Positions 3,855-23,003 of a DNA stretch of 27,123 nt are shown one piece after another. This stretch comes from a virus: positions 1-27,123 of the IMG/VR virus record IMGVR_UViG_3300036820_000429. One strand, written 5' to 3'. The first letter of the stretch is position 1; each line of letters begins with the position of its first letter. The notes below the pieces were generated by a model that saw only the letters and a program-made list of their open reading frames with translations, ran no database searches and was not told the DNA's origin. A program made the translations under genes and the position numbers.

Positions 3855-4063
3855 CACGTTACCTGCGCCCATGCGCACGATGTTCGGGGGGTGCTCATGG
3901 CCACGGATGCTAGACCGCAGGCGCGTGATTCCGCAACCCTGCGGAAATCGCGGGCTCGCCGTACGCCCAGCCGCCTGAGGATCGCCCGCTCTCGTCGCGG
4001 GCCCAGATTGCAGTCCGGCACGCAGAAGCGGTTCCGGGTGCCGTGAGTTCCTGGTTCCTGCAT
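3854..4063 (-). CDS. Small 69-residue ORF translationally coupled to parA
   Basis: ATG at 4063 follows AGGAG with an 8-base spacer, and the TGA stop shares a base with the parA ATG. The product is basic (about a quarter Arg), with RNRFCVPDCNLGPRR near the N-terminus containing two cysteines, and has no known domain. Its third-position GC is lower than in neighbouring genes, so it may be a recently formed gene or a leader that sets parA translation. GGTTCC hexamers crowd its first codons and its ribosome-binding site. If it is not a gene, this stretch is simply the parA leader. Confidence 0.4.
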   Translation of the reverse strand: MQEPGTHGTRNRFCVPDCNLGPRRERAILRRLGVRRARDFRRVAESRACGLASVAMSTPRTSCAWAQVT

Positions 4064-4069
4064 GGTTCC
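4030..4069. repeat. Three GGTTCC hexamers around the start of the parA-leader ORF
   Basis: GGTTCC occurs at 4030-4035, 4053-4058 and 4064-4069. On the minus strand the last two give CAGGAACC on either side of the ATG. These are the same hexamers that mass in three genes elsewhere in the window. Confidence 0.6.
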
Positions 4070-6077: not shown

Positions 6078-6437
6078 TCAGGTCGTGTAGATGAGCACGT
6101 CGGCGTAGTCGGCCAGGTACCGCGGCTCGGTGCCTGGCGGGACGAGGTCCGTGAGCAGGCAGAGTGCGTACCGCCGCAGCCACGCGTCCTCGTCGCCGTC
6201 AGCTTTCGACAGCCACCTCCTCAGGTGGCCCGCGTGCTCGGCCAGCTTGCGCAGCCTGTCGGCGTCGGCCCCGGAGAGCCGTGCCATCCGTGCCACGCAC
6301 GCGATCGCGCACACGCTGTCGGCAGTGCGCCTGTCCGGCCATGTCCGGCCGCGCGCGGAGCGGCGGTTCATGCCGGGCAGGGCCAGCCACCAGAACTCGG
6401 CGGGCCACGGGAAGGAATCGAGTGATAGTGCGCTCAC
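6078..6437 (-). CDS. Unknown cytoplasmic protein coupled to the FtsK-like gene
   Basis: 119 residues, starting at a GTG that overlaps the FtsK stop codon (GTGA). The sequence contains Trp-rich [14 protein letters not shown] near the start and a helical middle ([23 protein letters not shown]). The family is not recognised. Its coupling to the translocase suggests equal production and possible cooperation. Confidence 0.6.
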
Positions 6438-8563
6438 CGGGAAGCCTCCTCTGACTGCAGTGACAGGATCGTCTCGTCAAGATCTTCGGGCCGCACCAGC
6501 ACGTCGCGCGCCTGCGGGCCGTCGCTCGGCCCGACGATGCCGCGGCTTTCCAGCAGGTCCATCAGCCGGCCTGCCTTCGCGAACCCGACCCGGAGCTTGC
6601 GCTGCAGCATCGACGTCGAGCCGTGCTGGGTCGCGATGACCAGTTCCGCCGCTTCCAGGAGCAGCTCGAGGTCGTCGCCGATGCCCTCGTCGCGGGCCGC
6701 GGCAGCGTGCACGGGAAGGGCTGCGGCCGCGTGGCCTGCGGGAGGGAAGGCACCGGCCGCCGCAGGCGAGCCCTGCGCCTTCCAGTGCGCGACGATGTCC
6801 CGGATCTGCCTCTCTGACACGAAGGCGTTCTGCAGCCGGACCGGCTTGGACATGTCGGTCAGCAGCAGCAGAGCGTCGCCCTTGCCGGTCAGCTTCTCCG
6901 CGCCGCCCTGGTCCAGGATGACCCGGGAGTCGGTCAGCGATGAGGTGGAGAACGCGAGCCGGGACGGCACGTTGGCCTTGATCAGCCCGGTCACGACGTC
7001 CACGCTCGGGCGCTGGGTGGCCAGCACCAGGTGAATGCCGGCCGCCCGGGCCAGCTGGGCGATCCGCACGATTGTGTCCTCGACGTCGCGGGGCGCGACC
7101 ATCATCAGGTCAGCCAGCTCGTCGACGACCACCAGGAGATAGGGGTGCGGCCTGAGGATCCGCTGGCTGCCGGGCGGCGCCTTGAGGGCACCGGAGCGCA
7201 CCGCCGCGTTGAAGTCATCCACGTGCCGGAACCCGCCGGCGGCCAGGTCGTCGTAGCGCCGTTCCATCTCGCCCACGACCCAGTCCAGTGCCCCGGCGGC
7301 ATCCTTCGCATTGGTGATGATCGGCATGATCAGGTGCGGGATGCCGTCGTAGATGGTCAGCTCGACCCGCTTGGGGTCGATCAGGATCATCACGACCTCG
7401 TCGGGCGTGGCCCGGGTCAGGACCGACGTGATCAGCCCGTTCAGGCAGACCGACTTGCCCGACCCGGTGGCGCCCGCGATTATCACGTGCGGCATCGTCG
7501 CCGGGTTGACGACGATCGCATGGCCCTCGACGTCCTTGCCGAGCCCGACCACCATCGGGTGGCGGTCCCGGGCGGCCGCGTCGGACCTGAGCATGTCGCC
7601 GAGGCTGACGATCTCCCGGTCCTTGTTGGGGACTTCCACGCCGATCGCTGAGCGGCCGGGGATCGGGGAGACGATGCGCACGTCACTTCCGACCTCGTAC
7701 GCTATTCTCTTCGACAGGCTGGTAACCCGCTCGACCTTGGTCACCGGCCCGAGCTCGATCTCATACCTCGTCACGGCCGGGCCGCGGCAGTACCCCGTGA
7801 CCTGGGCGTCCACCTGGAACCGGCCGAGCATCTCCTGCAGGGCCCCCGCAATGCGGTTGTTCTCCTCGGTCTTGCTGTAGTGCACCGGGCCCGGCGGGAG
7901 CAGGTCCATGCTCGGCAGCACCCACCTGCGAGGCGCCGGCAAGCCGGCGGGGGGCGGGGCGGCCGGGGCGGGGTGTTCCGGGATGAGCACATCGAGGGCA
8001 GCGGATACCGCCGGTTCCGGCGAGACTCGCGCGTTGCCAGGAGGGGCCGGAGGCCATATCCGGCCGGAGAGCGGAACGCCATCCGGCTCGCTGACGGTCA
8101 GCGGCGGGGCGCCACGCTGGCCGCCCGGCGGAGCCTCGGCCACGACGCCGGCGGCGCGCGCGATGTCCGCGAGGCGCCGCCGGTGGGCGTTGTAGAACGC
8201 CGCCGGCAGCGCCGCCAGGATGTACACCGCCTGGATAATCCCGCGCGGGCCGCCGCCGAGGATTGTCGCCGCGAACCATGCCGACGCCAGGAATCCCGTG
8301 AGCACGATGGCATGCTTGCCCCCGGGGTCCTTCCGCACCGCTGCCGCCGCGATCGCCATCGCGGCCACCACGCCGATTACCGTCGCCGTGATACGGCCGT
8401 GCGGCTCCGGCTGGCGGTAGCCGATGACCGCGTACACATCCGCAGCGGCAGCCAGGACCAGCGGCCGGACCAGCCACGCATGCCCGGCACCTGGCGCCGG
8501 GGCGTGCTCTGGCTGGTCCGGCACCACGGGAGCGATCACCTCGGGCTCATGCCAGATGCCCAC
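6434..8563 (-). CDS. ftsK: FtsK/SpoIIIE-type DNA translocase
   Basis: A 709-residue motor that pumps double-stranded DNA. The N-terminus has about three to four hydrophobic segments between 31 and 124, then a Pro-rich linker (144-215). The alpha/beta motor follows: Walker A GATGSGKS at 364-371, DPKRVEL at 396-402, Walker [14 protein letters not shown] at 476-488, and ATQRPS at 515-520. The C-terminus (about 628-690) is a full winged-helix gamma domain ([20 protein letters not shown]), which in chromosomal FtsK/SpoIIIE reads 8-bp orienting sequences. Start is GTG with GGGGG upstream, 2 bases after the previous stop. Among membrane and wall-lysis genes, it is the likely DNA-transfer pump. A gamma domain this close to the chromosomal type is notable, since Streptomyces TraB proteins carry a more divergent one. 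Confidence 0.9.
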
Positions 8564-8565
8564 GC

Positions 8566-9006
8566 TCAGCCCCCGTTGCCCTTCTGGACGTGACTGAGGA
8601 CCTGGGTAAAGCCGTGCCCGTTGACGTCGGACTGGATGCCGTGCACGATGCCCGTGAGATTCGCGAACGTCAGCATCCCGGCGATGCCGAGCACGATCGC
8701 GGCATAGGCAGTGCGCTTCGCGTGGTAGTTACCGTGCTTCAGGGGCACCTGGAGCACGAAGTCGAAAAGTCCCCACGCAAGCGCGGCGCCGAGGATGAAT
8801 ATCCCGATCCCCGCCGAGGTGAACCGGTAAAGGCCGGGCCACCATACGGCGGCGCTGAATGTCACGGCAATCGCCGCGACCAGGAAGAGCCACATCCGGA
8901 GGGACTTCCCCTTGTCGTGCTTGTGCAGCCTGTAGGCCGCCACGCCGAGGAACGCCGCAGCGAAGGCCGCCGCGCCCAGGGTGTCGACTGTGCCGATGGT
9001 TCCCAT
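8566..9006 (-). CDS. Four-pass membrane protein of unknown function
   Basis: 146 residues with AAGGAG at ideal spacing before the ATG. Hydrophobic helices lie at about 9-24, 39-55, 64-87 and 102-120. Loops are short, with a basic HKHDKGK between the first two helices. It ends 2 bases before the FtsK start, so the two are cotranslated. The family is unknown; a membrane partner for the translocase is the natural inference. Confidence 0.65.
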
Positions 9007-9048: not shown

Positions 9049-9645
9049 TTACAGGACCAGGACCGCTATCGCGATGGCGACCAGGATGAGCACCGCTCCC
9101 GCAATGCACTGGCCGGGAACTGATGCGCCCAGGGCCGACAGGCCATTCCCTGCGGTATTCAGCGCCCTCCCGGTGGTGTGGAGCTGGAATCTCGCGGCGC
9201 CCTCGTGGCTGTTCGCGTGGACGTGATGCTCGGCCAGCGTCATCGGCTGGTACTGGTACGCGCGGTGAAGCGGGTGGCCGGGCGTCTCCGCCAGGCGGAG
9301 CAGTTCCGCCCCGGCCCCGCGGGCCGCCTTCAGAACCAGCCGGGCGATGCAGCGCAGAACCGGGCCGAGGATCTCCGGGGAACCGGCCGCGTCCCGGTTC
9401 TGGTTCTCGTCGGCCCCCGGTTCCGGAACCAGTCCGGTTCCGGGTTCCGGAGTGGCATCGGGACCGGAGGCGTTCTGGCGGTACGGCCATCCCGGGTTCT
9501 GGTTCCCGGCACCATCGAGCACCGTCATCCATGGCGGCCTCTGGGCCGACCGGTTCCGCGAACCAGGGTCCTGGGCCGGTGCCGCAGAACCATCGGTTCC
9601 GGGTTCCGGTTCCGCGTCCGGGTCATACCTGCGCACGAGCCTCAT
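9049..9645 (-). CDS. Low-complexity protein with a C-terminal membrane anchor
   Basis: 198 residues from ATG 9645 with GGAGGA upstream. The first half is a disordered linker built from Glu-Pro, Asn-Gln and Gly-Thr runs (for example DAEPEPGTDGSA and TPEPGTGLVPEPG), all encoded by GGAACC/GGTTCC hexamers in different frames. The middle (about 100-170) is helical with a His-rich stretch. The last 19 residues form a hydrophobic tail suggestive of a membrane anchor. No family is recognised. It overlaps the preceding gene by ATGA. The linker composition appears driven by the DNA repeat rather than by the peptide. Confidence 0.6.
   Translation of the reverse strand: MRLVRRYDPDAEPEPGTDGSAAPAQDPGSRNRSAQRPPWMTVLDGAGNQNPGWPYRQNASGPDATPEPGTGLVPEPGADENQNRDAAGSPEILGPVLRCIARLVLKAARGAGAELLRLAETPGHPLHRAYQYQPMTLAEHHVHANSHEGAARFQLHTTGRALNTAGNGLSALGASVPGQCIAGAVLILVAIAIAVLVL
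9379..9613. repeat. GGTTCC/GGAACC hexamer cluster inside a coding region
   Basis: Ten exact copies (eight GGTTCC, two GGAACC) occur in 235 bases, plus near-matches GGTTCT/AGAACC. They lie in the linker-coding half of the membrane-anchored protein gene and are read in all three frames. Spacing is irregular. Confidence 0.8.
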
Positions 9646-10025
9646 CGCGAATCCTCCTCTGCCTGGTAGCCCGGCATCTCCCGGACCAGGCGTATGTTCC
9701 GCTCGGTGAAGTACTGGTACAGCGCGACCGCATCTGCTGGGCGGCGCCGCGCTTCCCTGGCCAGGGCGGCACGCAGGGCCTGGACGGACGCATTGAAGGC
9801 GCCCTTGTGATCCCCTGCGGCCGCCAGTCCGCTGACCTGCACCTGGACCTGCGCGGCCTTCGCTGCGGCCACCTCGAGGTCGTGACCGAGAGTGACGGGA
9901 CTTGCCCCTCCCTCGGGCTGTGGTAGGGTCGGGCCCGCGGGCGCGCACATGCGGGCGCGTAGGGGACCGGATTCAGGCCTCCCGGTACTTGCGGGGGAGC
10001 GGGGGGTCCTTCTCGCTTCACTCAC
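9642..10025 (-). CDS. Helical protein of unknown function
   Basis: 127 residues from a GTG with an excellent GGAGGAGGT site 8 bases upstream. The first 45 residues are Pro/Arg-rich and probably disordered. The rest is helical, ending with QYFTERNIRLVREMPGYQAEED. No family is recognised. It is coupled by ATGA to the low-complexity membrane protein gene. The strong ribosome-binding site suggests high expression. Confidence 0.6.
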   Translation of the reverse strand: MSEARRTPRSPASTGRPESGPLRARMCAPAGPTLPQPEGGASPVTLGHDLEVAAAKAAQVQVQVSGLAAAGDHKGAFNASVQALRAALAREARRRPADAVALYQYFTERNIRLVREMPGYQAEEDSR

Positions 10026-10057
10026 TGTCGGTCACCTCCTCCTGTTTTCCGTAGTCC

Positions 10058-11128
10058 TCAGACCGCGACTTCCGCGGCGGGGGCCTGGGTCAGCCACTGG
10101 GTCAGCTTCAGGGCCTCGCACGCCACGGCCTTGGACTTGCCGAGTTCCTTGGCCAGCTGGGCTGCCGTCGGGCGCCTGCCGTGAACGGCAAGCCAGGTCG
10201 CGACGACTTCCTCCGCCCGGGGCTTCAGCTCCAGCGCGACGTCCCGGGGGCCGCGCGCCGGGCCGCGCCTGCGGGCAGCCGGTTCCGCCGACTCCCCTGT
10301 TCCGAGTTCCGGGTTCTGGTCCGCGACCGGCTCCGGTTCCGACAAGGGAGGCTGTGCTGGTTCTGGTTCCGGGATCCGCCCTGGTTCCAGTTCCGGTTCC
10401 GGCATTGCCGGGGCCTCGGTTCCGGAACCGGAACCAGCACCATTGCGGTTCTGGTTCCGATCGGAAGCCGGTTCTGGAACTAGCGCTGGTTCCAGTTCCC
10501 GGAGCGGCATAGCCGGAACTGCGACCGGTTCCGGAACCACCCCGGCATCCGGCCGGTTCTGGTTCCCGGTTCTGGTTCCGACTGCGACGATCGCTGCCGA
10601 CGGGTTCTGCTCGCCGATCCACGTGGCCCACCGCATGGCGCGGAAACTGCCGAGCGGATGCCAGAACCACCTAGTTGCCCCCAGCTTTACCGCGCGGCCC
10701 TCGAGGAGCCCGCGTTCCATGAAAAGATCGCGGCTGACACGGCGGCTGAACATCGACCACAGCCACGGCGACAATGCCGACAGCAGCCCCAGGCTCACGG
10801 CCTTCGCTGTCGGGTGCCAGTGGACTGAGAAGTGGCTGTAATTGAGCGCTCCCACTACCGCGCCGAGCGCATAGCTTGCCAGCTTCGTGCGCAGTGCGGA
10901 GTCGTTGTTCTTCTGTGACTGGTGCGCATGGGCGGCGACAGTCACCGCGATTGACTCGATCGTCGCCGCGTAAAGGATGTCGCCGGGCTTGTCCCACCCG
11001 AAATGCTCGGACGCGTAGCCGTACTGGCCGATGAACGCGACCGTATTCACCAGAAGCGATGAGGCCGCGAACGAGCACGTCGCGATACTGATCTTCCGGA
11101 GATCCACATCCGGCAGCCGGACGCTCAT
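10058..11128 (-). CDS. DUF2637-like membrane protein with a C-terminal helix-turn-helix
   Basis: 356 residues. The N-terminal 130 resemble the DUF2637 membrane family found on Streptomyces plasmids and integrative elements: hydrophobic helices at about 14-34, 51-68, 84-100 and 108-127, with a conserved-looking NYSHF between them. A long disordered section (about 180-290) consists of EPEPEP, NQNR and GSGSGT runs encoded by GGTTCC hexamers. The last 55 residues hold a helix-turn-helix (RRPTAAQLAKELGKSKAVACEALK). Start is ATG 11128 with GGGGAGG upstream, overlapping the previous stop by ATGA. Likely a spread/transfer membrane protein that also touches DNA. The family call is by pattern. Confidence 0.7.
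   Translation of the reverse strand: MSVRLPDVDLRKISIATCSFAASSLLVNTVAFIGQYGYASEHFGWDKPGDILYAATIESIAVTVAAHAHQSQKNNDSALRTKLASYALGAVVGALNYSHFSVHWHPTAKAVSLGLLSALSPWLWSMFSRRVSRDLFMERGLLEGRAVKLGATRWFWHPLGSFRAMRWATWIGEQNPSAAIVAVGTRTGNQNRPDAGVVPEPVAVPAMPLRELEPALVPEPASDRNQNRNGAGSGSGTEAPAMPEPELEPGRIPEPEPAQPPLSEPEPVADQNPELGTGESAEPAARRRGPARGPRDVALELKPRAEEVVATWLAVHGRRPTAAQLAKELGKSKAVACEALKLTQWLTQAPAAEVAV
10281..10579. repeat. Dense GGTTCC/GGAACC hexamer cluster inside a coding region
   Basis: Fourteen exact copies (eleven GGTTCC, three GGAACC) occur in 299 bases, with several CCGGTTCCGG and CCGGAACCGG cores and near-matches GGTTCT. All lie in the disordered linker of the DUF2637-like gene and are translated in all three frames (Glu-Pro, Asn-Gln/Arg, Gly-Ser/Thr). 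Confidence 0.85.
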
Positions 11129-12211: not shown

Positions 12212-12994
12212 GTGAGCATCGCACCCGACCGGGGCGGCCCGGTAACAGACCGGATCGCATCCGACATGCGCCGCAGGATCGCGAGCGGCGACCTCAAGCC
12301 GGGGGAGACGCTGGGAACGGCGCAGCACCTGGCCGGGCACTACGACGCCGGCCTCACCACCGTCCGCGCCGCCCTCCTGCGCCTGGGGGAGGAGGGGCTG
12401 ATCCTGGCGGGCAAGGGCCGCTCGTACCGTGTGCGCGAAGAGCACACGAAACTCACCCTGGACCTGGGGTACGAGAGCCGCAGCCGCCACAAGATGATCG
12501 CCGGCGACCAGTGGGACGACATGGTCCTCGCCCAGGGCCACGAGCCCGGCCAGGAAATCGAGATGCTGGTCCGCTCGGCGGCGCAGGTGCCTCCCGAGGT
12601 CGCCCGGCTGCTCGGATCCGACGGCAAGATCGTCGTGCGCAGCCGGAAGCGGCAGGTCGACGGGCACCCGAGCATGCTCTCCGTGTCGTACTTCCCGTAT
12701 GACATCGTGAAGGACACGCCGCTGATGGAGCCCGAGGACGTCCACGTCCCCGGCGGGGTGCTCGCCGCCTACGGGCACCCGCAGGACCACCTTGACTGGA
12801 CCGTCATCCCCCGGATGCCGACCGAGGGCGAGGCCGCCTGGTTCGATCTTGCCCGCGGCGTGCCGGTCTCCGAGATCACGTGCACCGGCTACGAGGTGAA
12901 CGCCGGGCACCCTGATGGCCTGCCTGTCCGCGTGATGATCTCCATCGCCCCGGCCGACCGCTGGATAATCTCCGCGCGGATGGACGCCGCGTGA
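12212..12994 (+). CDS. GntR-family (HutC subfamily) transcriptional regulator
   Basis: 260 residues from a GTG with AGGGAAGGG upstream. The N-terminal winged helix (about 11-74) shows VTDRIASDMRRRIASGDLKP and GLTTVRAALLRLGEEGLIL. The rest (about 90-255) has the layout of a UTRA effector domain (GQEIEMLVRSAAQVPPEVA, SVSYFPYDIV, GVPVSEI). In actinobacterial conjugative elements such as pSAM2, GntR-type Kor proteins repress transfer and replication genes; this one may do the same between the two arms. The palindromes over its own promoter suggest autoregulation. It overlaps the next gene by GTGA. The ligand is unknown. Confidence 0.85.
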   Translation: MSIAPDRGGPVTDRIASDMRRRIASGDLKPGETLGTAQHLAGHYDAGLTTVRAALLRLGEEGLILAGKGRSYRVREEHTKLTLDLGYESRSRHKMIAGDQWDDMVLAQGHEPGQEIEMLVRSAAQVPPEVARLLGSDGKIVVRSRKRQVDGHPSMLSVSYFPYDIVKDTPLMEPEDVHVPGGVLAAYGHPQDHLDWTVIPRMPTEGEAAWFDLARGVPVSEITCTGYEVNAGHPDGLPVRVMISIAPADRWIISARMDAA

Positions 12995-21401: not shown

Positions 21402-22051
21402 CCGCCATGGAGGCCGTCTCTGATGTCGCCCTGAAGCACGCCTGGGGATTCGACGCCGGCGACACCGGCCGCCAGATAATCCTGGTCTCCGTCGCGCTGT
21501 TCGCCAACGAGGACGGGACCGGTCGGTACGACATGCCGGACGGGCTGCTGGCCGATAAATGCAACATGCCCATGCCGCGCCTGAGGCGCGACCTCCGGTG
21601 GCTGCTGGAAAACGGCTACCTCCGCAGGCGGAGCGCAGATTCCCATGTCTACGACATCCCTCTGAGTGAATCTTCGCGGCAGGAGTGGCGGCAAGCCGCC
21701 GCCGGGCCGGACGGGCCACCTGTGCGGTACCGGCCGAACGGTCCGGATGGTTCATGGGTCGGCGGCCATCCCTCTAGGCCGGGCTGGGAGGCGGCGCCGA
21801 CGCCACAGCCCGGGGACTATGTCGTCTACTTTCTTTTCGACCACGCGGGCGATATCTGCTATGTCGGGAAATCAAAGAACTTCCGCAGCAGGGTCGGCGA
21901 CCATGCCCGCGACAAGACCTTCGAAAGCTGGCTGGCGCTACCCGTTTCCGGTCAGCAAGAAGCCTTTGCCTTTGAAACACGGTATCGCCACGAATATCGT
22001 CCGTACCTGAACATTGCGGGCATGAAGCCGACGGGGGAGGCGGATGAGTGA
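21398..22051 (+). CDS. Fusion of a winged-helix domain and a GIY-YIG nuclease domain
   Basis: 217 residues. The first 90 form a winged helix of the phage replication-initiator type (QIILVSVALFANEDGTGRYD, LRRDLRWLLENGYLRRR). After a Pro/Gly linker (about 100-138), residues 141-205 form a GIY-YIG core: YVVYFL (141-146), the CYVGKS strand (154-159), NFRSRVGDHA with catalytic-type Arg165, and a FETRYRHEYRPYLN helix containing a Glu at 193. The enzyme would nick or cut DNA at sites chosen by the winged helix. It immediately precedes a second winged-helix replication protein, which fits origin nicking or replication restart. The domain pair is unusual to me; novelty is unverified. Confidence 0.7.
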   Translation: MTAMEAVSDVALKHAWGFDAGDTGRQIILVSVALFANEDGTGRYDMPDGLLADKCNMPMPRLRRDLRWLLENGYLRRRSADSHVYDIPLSESSRQEWRQAAAGPDGPPVRYRPNGPDGSWVGGHPSRPGWEAAPTPQPGDYVVYFLFDHAGDICYVGKSKNFRSRVGDHARDKTFESWLALPVSGQQEAFAFETRYRHEYRPYLNIAGMKPTGEADE

Positions 22052-23003
22052 AGGCCTGCGCAAACGGAGGCGACCGTACCTCAACGTTCCCAGTGCGGCC
22101 GTCAATGACCGCCGTCTGTCCTATAAAGCCCGCGGCATTCATCACTACCTCCTGGACAAGCCCGCGGGATGGGACGTGAGATCCCTTGCCATCGCCGGTG
22201 ACAGCGACGCTGACGGCAAGGATTCCGTTCAGGCGGGGCTTAGGGAGCTTGCGCGGCTGGGCTACTACCGGATCGAGCGCCGACGCCTCCGGGACGGGCG
22301 CCTGCTCACGGGCACGGCTGTTTCCGAGTATCCGGATCCGGTATGGGCCGACCAGTATGCCGAGCATGAGGGGCCGGTCGACTGTGTTCAGCAGATGGAC
22401 GGGACGTTCCGCGTGCGGCGCAAGGACGGCACTCTCGTACCCGACGGGTTCGAGGACGATGAGGATCCATTCGACCCAAATGGCGGTGTTTGTGCAGGTC
22501 AGGCCGGAACCGGGTTTCCCGGCACCGGGCCAGCCGGTTCCGGTGCAGCCGGTTCCGGCCAAACCGGTGCCGGTCCAGCCGGAACCGGAAAACCCCGCGC
22601 CTCTACCAATACAGAGGAACCACTACGGGAACCTCCGGTTCCCTCGGGAGGTTCCGCGAGATCCGACGTCGAACGGCTCTGCGACCACCTCGCTGGCCTG
22701 ATCGAAGCCAACGGGTCCAGGCGGCCGACCGTCACGAAGAAGTGGCGCGATGCATGCCGCCTCCTGCTAGATGCCGATGGAAGGTCCGAGGAGCAGATCC
22801 GGAAAGCCATCGACTGGTGCCAGGCCGATGAGTTCTGGCGCGCGAACGTTATGTCGATGCCAACCCTGCGAGAGAAATACGACATGCTCCGCCTGAGGGC
22901 ACAGGCAAAGCGGAACGGCGACGCCAATGGACGCAATCAATCCCCCCGAGTGGACTATCCCGATGAGGAGTACGGCAGTGGCTTCACCCCCCGATCCGCA
23001 TGA
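22044..23003 (+). CDS. Winged-helix replication protein (replisome-organiser-like)
   Basis: 319 residues with GGGGGAGG before the ATG. The N-terminal 90 residues carry a winged helix (YLNVPSAAVNDRRLSYKARG, DSVQAGLRELARLGYYRIER), a form common in actinophage replication initiators. A Gly-Ser-Thr-rich linker (about 150-190) is encoded by GGAACC hexamers. The C-terminal region (KKWRDACRLLLDADGRSEEQ, CQADEFWRANVMSMPTLREK) resembles the C-terminal tail of phage replication proteins that recruit the helicase loader. It precedes a DnaC-like loader and the DnaB helicase, so it is likely the origin-binding protein. Confidence 0.75.
   Translation: MSEGLRKRRRPYLNVPSAAVNDRRLSYKARGIHHYLLDKPAGWDVRSLAIAGDSDADGKDSVQAGLRELARLGYYRIERRRLRDGRLLTGTAVSEYPDPVWADQYAEHEGPVDCVQQMDGTFRVRRKDGTLVPDGFEDDEDPFDPNGGVCAGQAGTGFPGTGPAGSGAAGSGQTGAGPAGTGKPRASTNTEEPLREPPVPSGGSARSDVERLCDHLAGLIEANGSRRPTVTKKWRDACRLLLDADGRSEEQIRKAIDWCQADEFWRANVMSMPTLREKYDMLRLRAQAKRNGDANGRNQSPRVDYPDEEYGSGFTPRSA
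22506..22655. repeat. GGTTCC/GGAACC hexamer cluster in the replication-protein linker
   Basis: Eight exact copies (four of each orientation) occur in 150 bases, several within CCGGTTCCGG or CCGGAACCGG cores. They encode Gly-Ser-Gly-Thr and Pro-rich residues between the two domains of the winged-helix replication protein. It is the same hexamer as in the left-arm genes but on the opposite coding strand. Confidence 0.8.

Follow-up and report, generated by a model that had tools for sequence, protein, structure and literature searches.

Hexamer arrays in the coding regions of membrane-anchored helix-turn-helix proteins of actinobacterial plasmids and phages: candidate self-encoded DNA-docking sites

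Introduction

Clustered sites for a DNA-binding protein are known from ParB-parS and other centromere arrays, and in the phage lambda ori the iterons lie inside the initiator gene O. Streptomyces conjugative plasmids carry clt, arrays of repeats beside the tra genes that are read by TraB or TraA itself (PMC3583192, PMC12857230). The SpdA2 protein of pIJ101 binds the sps palindrome inside its own coding region and affects plasmid stability, and the same source describes SpdB2 of pSVH1 as a spread protein that is integral to the membrane, binds DNA and interacts with TraB (PMC4170104). Here we report an analysis of the window, i.e., an entire IMG/VR record of 27,123 bases, in which a hexamer is massed inside the genes of an operon that also encodes an FtsK-like motor, and we compare it with related loci of plasmids and phages.

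Results

GGAACC/GGTTCC is concentrated in a few places of the window

An exact scan of the window found 51 copies of GGAACC/GGTTCC, compared with 15.4±3.8 expected from dinucleotide-preserving shuffles and a largest count of 25 in 100 shuffles of the window. It is the top over-represented hexamer, GGTTCT is part of the same pattern, and GGTTCTGGTTCC occurs five times where about zero copies are expected. The copy numbers that the initial annotation had given for four clusters proved exact (Table 1). Its observation that the hexamer is read in all three frames was also correct, and both orientations occur in both left-arm genes. In the DUF2637-like gene, all three frames (0, 1 and 2) are used for GGAACC and two (0 and 2) for GGTTCC, which yields PEP, GNQ, RNQ, GTR, GSG and other peptides; the small membrane gene shows a comparable picture. 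The cluster near parA is apparently non-coding and precedes the likely start of parA by about 180 bp.

Pfam identified all three domains of the FtsK-like translocase (FtsK_SpoIIIE, 4.5e-64; FtsK_alpha, 1.2e-23; FtsK_gamma, 4.6e-22). A GntR-family regulator diverges at 12212, and the window also encodes ParA and a weak ParB_N match. No phage structural gene was seen among the proteins scanned in the window (1-27123), and a record with ParA, weak ParB_N, Rep, DnaC, DnaB and FtsK may represent a plasmid or phage-plasmid fragment.

Table 1. Arrays and neighbouring genes in the window
Feature	Position	Strand	Basis or remark
parA	3069 to about 3854	-	three GGTTCC upstream
Three GGTTCC upstream of parA	4030-4069	.	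exact scan
FtsK-like DNA translocase; alpha, motor and gamma domains	6434-8563	-	Pfam
Gene of a small membrane protein, immediately upstream of ftsK	8566-9006	-	ORF, hydrophobic translation
Small membrane protein, second array in N-terminal part	9049-9645	-	ORF; permutation 0/5000
Second array: 10 GGAACC/GGTTCC and 4 GGTTCT/AGAACC	9379-9613	.	exact scan
Short ORF	9642-10025	-	ORF
TM-linker-HTH gene, DUF2637-like, 356 aa; main array host, proposed reader	10058-11128	-	AlphaFold, alignments
C-terminal HTH code (aa 305-348)	10085-10216	-	AlphaFold model
Main array: 14 GGAACC/GGTTCC and 6 GGTTCT half-like sites	10281-10579	.	linker code; exact scan
Replication protein gene	22044-23003	+	third array in linker code
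Third array: 8 hexamers, linker code of replication protein gene	22506-22655	.	scan and codon permutation

Selection acts on the DNA

The initial annotation had proposed selection on the DNA rather than on the peptide, and this was borne out by codon permutations in the window and by the orthologue groups of its relatives. Whole-gene synonymous-codon permutation gave a mean of 4.6 and a maximum of 11 hexamers for the DUF2637-like gene, where 14 are observed (0/5000), and a mean of 3.2 and a maximum of 9 for the small membrane gene, where 10 are observed (0/5000). For the Rep gene, the eight observed hexamers (mean 2.4) were matched by 6/5000 permutations. When permutation was confined to the linker, the observed number was reached in 0/5000 cases for all three genes. 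GAA makes up 75% of the Glu codons in the main linker versus 23% in FtsK, and the permutation analysis revealed no hexamer enrichment in the FtsK and DnaB genes of the window.

In the wider set, 45 of 50 elements exceeded all 400 whole-gene synonymous shuffles, and 38 of 39 in-gene arrays exceeded all 300 linker-restricted shuffles. Alignment of orthologues showed that array hexamers are retained more often than control hexamers in class A (77% vs 42%), class C (84% vs 48%) and class B (84% vs 60%), a comparison that is conservative because the control stretches can include conserved transmembrane (TM) code. The higher retention extends to third codon positions. The classes include an S. xanthophaeus plasmid (class A), Streptomyces NA02950 (class B) and K. 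fiedleri (class C). In class A2, the hexamer was kept in 44% and the overlying peptide in 38%, whereas the controls were reversed (20% vs 33%). The distances between adjacent sites fall into all three codon phases.

The main array lies in the linker code of a TM-linker-HTH protein

The AlphaFold model of the main array host contains four TM helices (residues 10-43, 46-73, 78-103 and 108-138), a disordered linker (188-300, pLDDT about 37) and a C-terminal three-helix helix-turn-helix (HTH) domain with a pLDDT of about 82; the main array codes for about residues 184-283. The protein aligns with phage and plasmid relatives, with common residues in the TM part, and TM helices, linker and HTH are arranged alike in the model of a class A relative from Streptomyces. 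The label 'DUF2637-like' given in the initial annotation holds only by anatomy and by alignment with relatives, because the window protein has no match to PF10935 (DUF2637) at E up to 1; L016, a relative in the set, scores 61.4 bits against a cut-off of 22.8. Both the window HTH (Sigma70_r3, MarR_2) and the other HTHs of the set have only weak, varied HTH-like matches in Pfam. No close homologue of the window protein was found in the viral contigs, a scan of genome contigs with L092 gave no match, and a Foldseek search with the window protein model returned no significant match.

Related genes carry arrays of other motifs

We scanned 63 FtsK relatives in viral contigs as well as plasmid and phage loci; further loci, retrieved by TM domain alone, came from 32 genome contigs and 13 viral contigs. 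A gene of this type, encoding four TM helices, a disordered linker and a C-terminal HTH, occurs in plasmids, phages and phage-plasmids, often near an FtsK-like motor and with a dense hexamer array in the linker code or in the next gene. A same-strand FtsK-, TraB- or T4CP-like motor is present in the flanks of 24 of the 45 loci retrieved by TM domain alone. A GntR regulator adjoins the operon in several elements, an SsgA sporulation regulator is found in the context of pSROS01, and one TM type alone accounts for 68 PLSDB plasmid records.

The array motif varies by lineage. Those found in TM-linker-HTH genes include CGGTAC, GTAACG, CCGAACAC (about 60 copies in one gene, in all frames), CCGTACGG, GCGGAAC, GGACCG, GAACCG, GAGACC, GGAACG, TCGATCGA and others. 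In relatives, the second gene, corresponding to 9049-9645 of the window, bears the same motif as the TM-HTH gene, and in phage-type elements (Galactica, L137, L142, L144, L145 and L147) the array is in the next long gene. Clusters were restricted to the TM-HTH locus in the mapped replicons pSROS01 and K. fiedleri plasmid 3, as well as in the mapped stretches of the S. pogona phage-plasmid and Galactica; of the replicons mapped, only the window departs from this, having further clusters in rep and upstream of parA. A paired-site search in two host genomes exceeded the reversed-pattern control modestly in one genome and hardly at all in the other.

An array is missing from some TM-HTH or DUF2637 genes (L008, L094, L097, L098, L196 and L197). 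L094, L097 and L098 are generic Streptomyces DUF2637 plasmid genes, as is L096, which has an array just downstream. Chromosomal Streptomyces DUF2637 loci, in which a coiled-coil-like tail replaces the HTH, showed no comparable in-gene array; at some of them the selected ORF was in a frame other than that of DUF2637, and the surrounding stretch was scanned. Such a chromosomal relative, with no HTH and the conserved tail LTAEDDTxALPRLDSLERKLKDLEQQFG, is present in many Streptomyces genomes (L159-L186).

In class B plasmids, additional clusters lie downstream of the TM-HTH gene (L104:9298-9591, L149:8351-8489 and L134:8353-8491), with the hexamers CTTGCC and CGTCAA/TTGACG. On one 44.6 kb contig of G199, a TM-HTH gene recurs as L188, L189 and L190, which share their C-terminus; two of these copies have a one-frame GGAAGC repeat.

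The motif covaries with the HTH

Across a covariation set of 51 non-redundant elements, motif similarity correlated with HTH similarity after TM similarity was removed (partial Mantel r 0.42, p = 2e-4); a weaker correlation of motif with TM domain persists (r 0.25, p = 0.002). The hexamer was identical in 65 of 74 HTH-similar pairs and agreed at five of six bases in another 8, and it was identical in none of 243 pairs with similar TM domains and dissimilar HTHs, these counts being descriptive because pairs are not independent. L006 has its HTH and motif in common with L104, L113 and L148 despite unrelated TM domains, and the same is true of L016 and L017.

Seven plasmid loci fetched after the covariation analysis served as a held-out test. 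The hexamer was predicted exactly by the HTH in five of the seven (L201, L203, L204, L205 and L207); for L202 the motif class was right, and for L206 five of six bases. In the four loci for which the TM domain predicted otherwise (L201, L202, L203 and L206), the prediction from the HTH was closer each time. Furthermore, L192, whose nearest HTH is that of S. pogona (TCGATCGA), carries GATCGA in all frames, in agreement with this relationship. These results suggest that the array is probably read by the HTH of the gene's own product. The window HTH has no near relative within the element set, so its assignment to GGAACC is by analogy; its own HTH would likewise be the reader of the window array.

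In the class A HTHs L110, L129, L137, L144 and L145, residue changes in the NRxN-V/I/C or SKRSI stretch seem to track GGACC, GGATC or GGAAC-type motifs. This may be a specificity code, seen in few sequences.

The replication protein array

The cluster in the Rep linker code may be a separate, origin-like feature. Repeat arrays in linker code were also seen in relatives of the window Rep (L066:3708-3853, L078:9724-9942, L080:10013-10067 and L083:8715-8769), with CCGGTCA, AAGGGTTC and GGAACAG, in three frames, as repeat units. The arrays of these relatives are possibly origin iterons inside the initiator gene, and the lambda ori in gene O is a likely parallel for the window Rep-linker array.

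Discussion

We consider it probable that the array consists of sites for the membrane-anchored HTH protein of its own gene, which would tether the element DNA beside FtsK. One gene would produce a protein in which a long disordered linker joins four TM helices to a C-terminal HTH, and the linker codons of this gene and of the next would spell many copies of the proposed HTH site. The HTH of the product would bind the array in trans, and many membrane-tethered HTHs on one cluster of sites could hold the element DNA at the membrane. The DNA gathered in this way would sit next to the FtsK-like motor encoded in the same operon, and its role might be that of a docking site for transfer (clt-like) or for segregation across septa (centromere-like). 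We propose this docking as the cellular role of the array; it is supported by the genomic context, namely motor genes, GntR regulators and the SsgA of pSROS01. The Rep array, which shares the hexamer and has no HTH-anchor reason to do so, counts against this explanation, as do the TM-HTH or DUF2637 genes that lack an array and the residual correlation of motif with TM domain.

The window arrays conform to a pattern that recurs among plasmids and phages of actinobacteria. On balance, we favour the view that this pattern represents an undescribed, widespread locus of actinobacterial mobile elements, in which one gene encodes a tethered DNA-binding protein together with its own array, and array and HTH co-evolve. 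If so, 'hypothetical' and DUF2637 proteins would become a testable DNA-docking system with a target readable from its own gene. Plasmids and phages with near-identical FtsK motors could mark their own DNA, each lineage having its own DNA address, and the HTH-target pairs would be listed ready-made. Such pairs could be used to derive HTH specificity rules and as orthogonal DNA tags. The array stretch would be an unusually dense case of dual use, as protein code and predicted binding array.

The initial annotation had offered three readings of the hexamer, i.e., a protein-binding array, a restriction or modification motif, and a self-expanding repeat. The first is supported. A restriction or modification motif is disfavoured because the motif differs among relatives, tracks the HTH and clusters at a single locus in the other replicons mapped, and a self-expanding repeat is disfavoured because the spacing is irregular, the orientations are mixed and the sites are conserved between orthologues. 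As for the ParB or methyltransferases that it had named as possible readers, the HTH of the protein encoded by the array-bearing gene is a better candidate.

The array might instead be read by a different DNA-binding protein from the vicinity (a small operon protein, a ParB-like protein or GntR), with the HTH correlation due to linkage. The window does have ParB-like and GntR genes, and the code for array and HTH is adjacent, so recombination could move the two as one block; such co-transfer may still have contributed. However, in phage-type and second-gene arrays the motif lies in a different gene and still matches the HTH class, which argues against mere linkage, and the array is absent where the TM protein has no HTH. 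We regard this alternative as unlikely.

The TM-HTH protein could also be a membrane-bound transcription regulator and the sites its operators. The architecture and the three sites upstream of parA would suit such a role, but the sites lie within genes at very high density (L020 has up to about 60), and a GntR regulator already stands beside the operon in several elements, making operators quite improbable.

A very improbable reader is the FtsK-like translocase itself, acting through its gamma domain in a KOPS- or TRS-like manner, as TraB reads clt. The translocase gene, gamma domain included, is in the same operon as the array, and TraB recognises the 8-bp clt repeats through its winged HTH (PMC3583192, PMC12857230). 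However, the recognition stretch of gamma shows almost no variation among elements whose motifs are CGGTAC, GCCACC, GGTAAC, GACCCC, CGTTAC and GGAACC, so the motif is not set by the motor. Elements with the same gamma did not share a motif in the way of KOPS/SRS, and the FtsK proteins of L004 and L017 are 92% identical over 387 aa while their motifs differ.

That the hexamer generally arises from peptide repeats or from the codon bias of disordered linkers is hardly credible: these linkers are rich in Pro-Glu and Gly-Thr, and a few genes have one-frame repeats (L093, L095 and L188) that may be peptide repeats, but the permutation nulls within genes and linkers, the use of several frames and both orientations, and the stronger conservation of DNA than of peptide in class A2 reject it.

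No published description of self-encoded TM-HTH arrays was found in the literature searched, most subscription papers being outside its reach. ParB-parS and other centromere arrays, as well as the lambda ori, have no membrane-anchored reader encoded around the sites. The TM bundle resembles that of DUF2637, but the window protein differs in lacking a PF10935 match, and the chromosomal Streptomyces copies in lacking both HTH and array. Compared by description, SpdA2/sps is similar in that a plasmid DNA-binding protein has a site (here predicted) in its own gene; however, SpdA2 has a single conserved palindrome rather than a lineage-specific array of tens of sites. For SpdB2, DNA binding is reported to be non-specific, and no self-encoded array is described in the source consulted. 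In layout, the locus resembles TraB/TraA-clt (TRS), with an array by an FtsK-like motor gene, as seen in the window operon and at the 24 loci noted above, a plasmid-specific motif and a tie to a membrane DNA-handling system (PMC3583192, PMC12857230, PMC4170104). At clt, the motor reads the repeats with its own C-terminal winged HTH, and the arrays are small and mostly non-coding. In the loci described here, by contrast, the near-invariant gamma domains and differing motifs suggest that the motor is not the reader; the array is large and coding, and its motif follows a separate TM-HTH protein.
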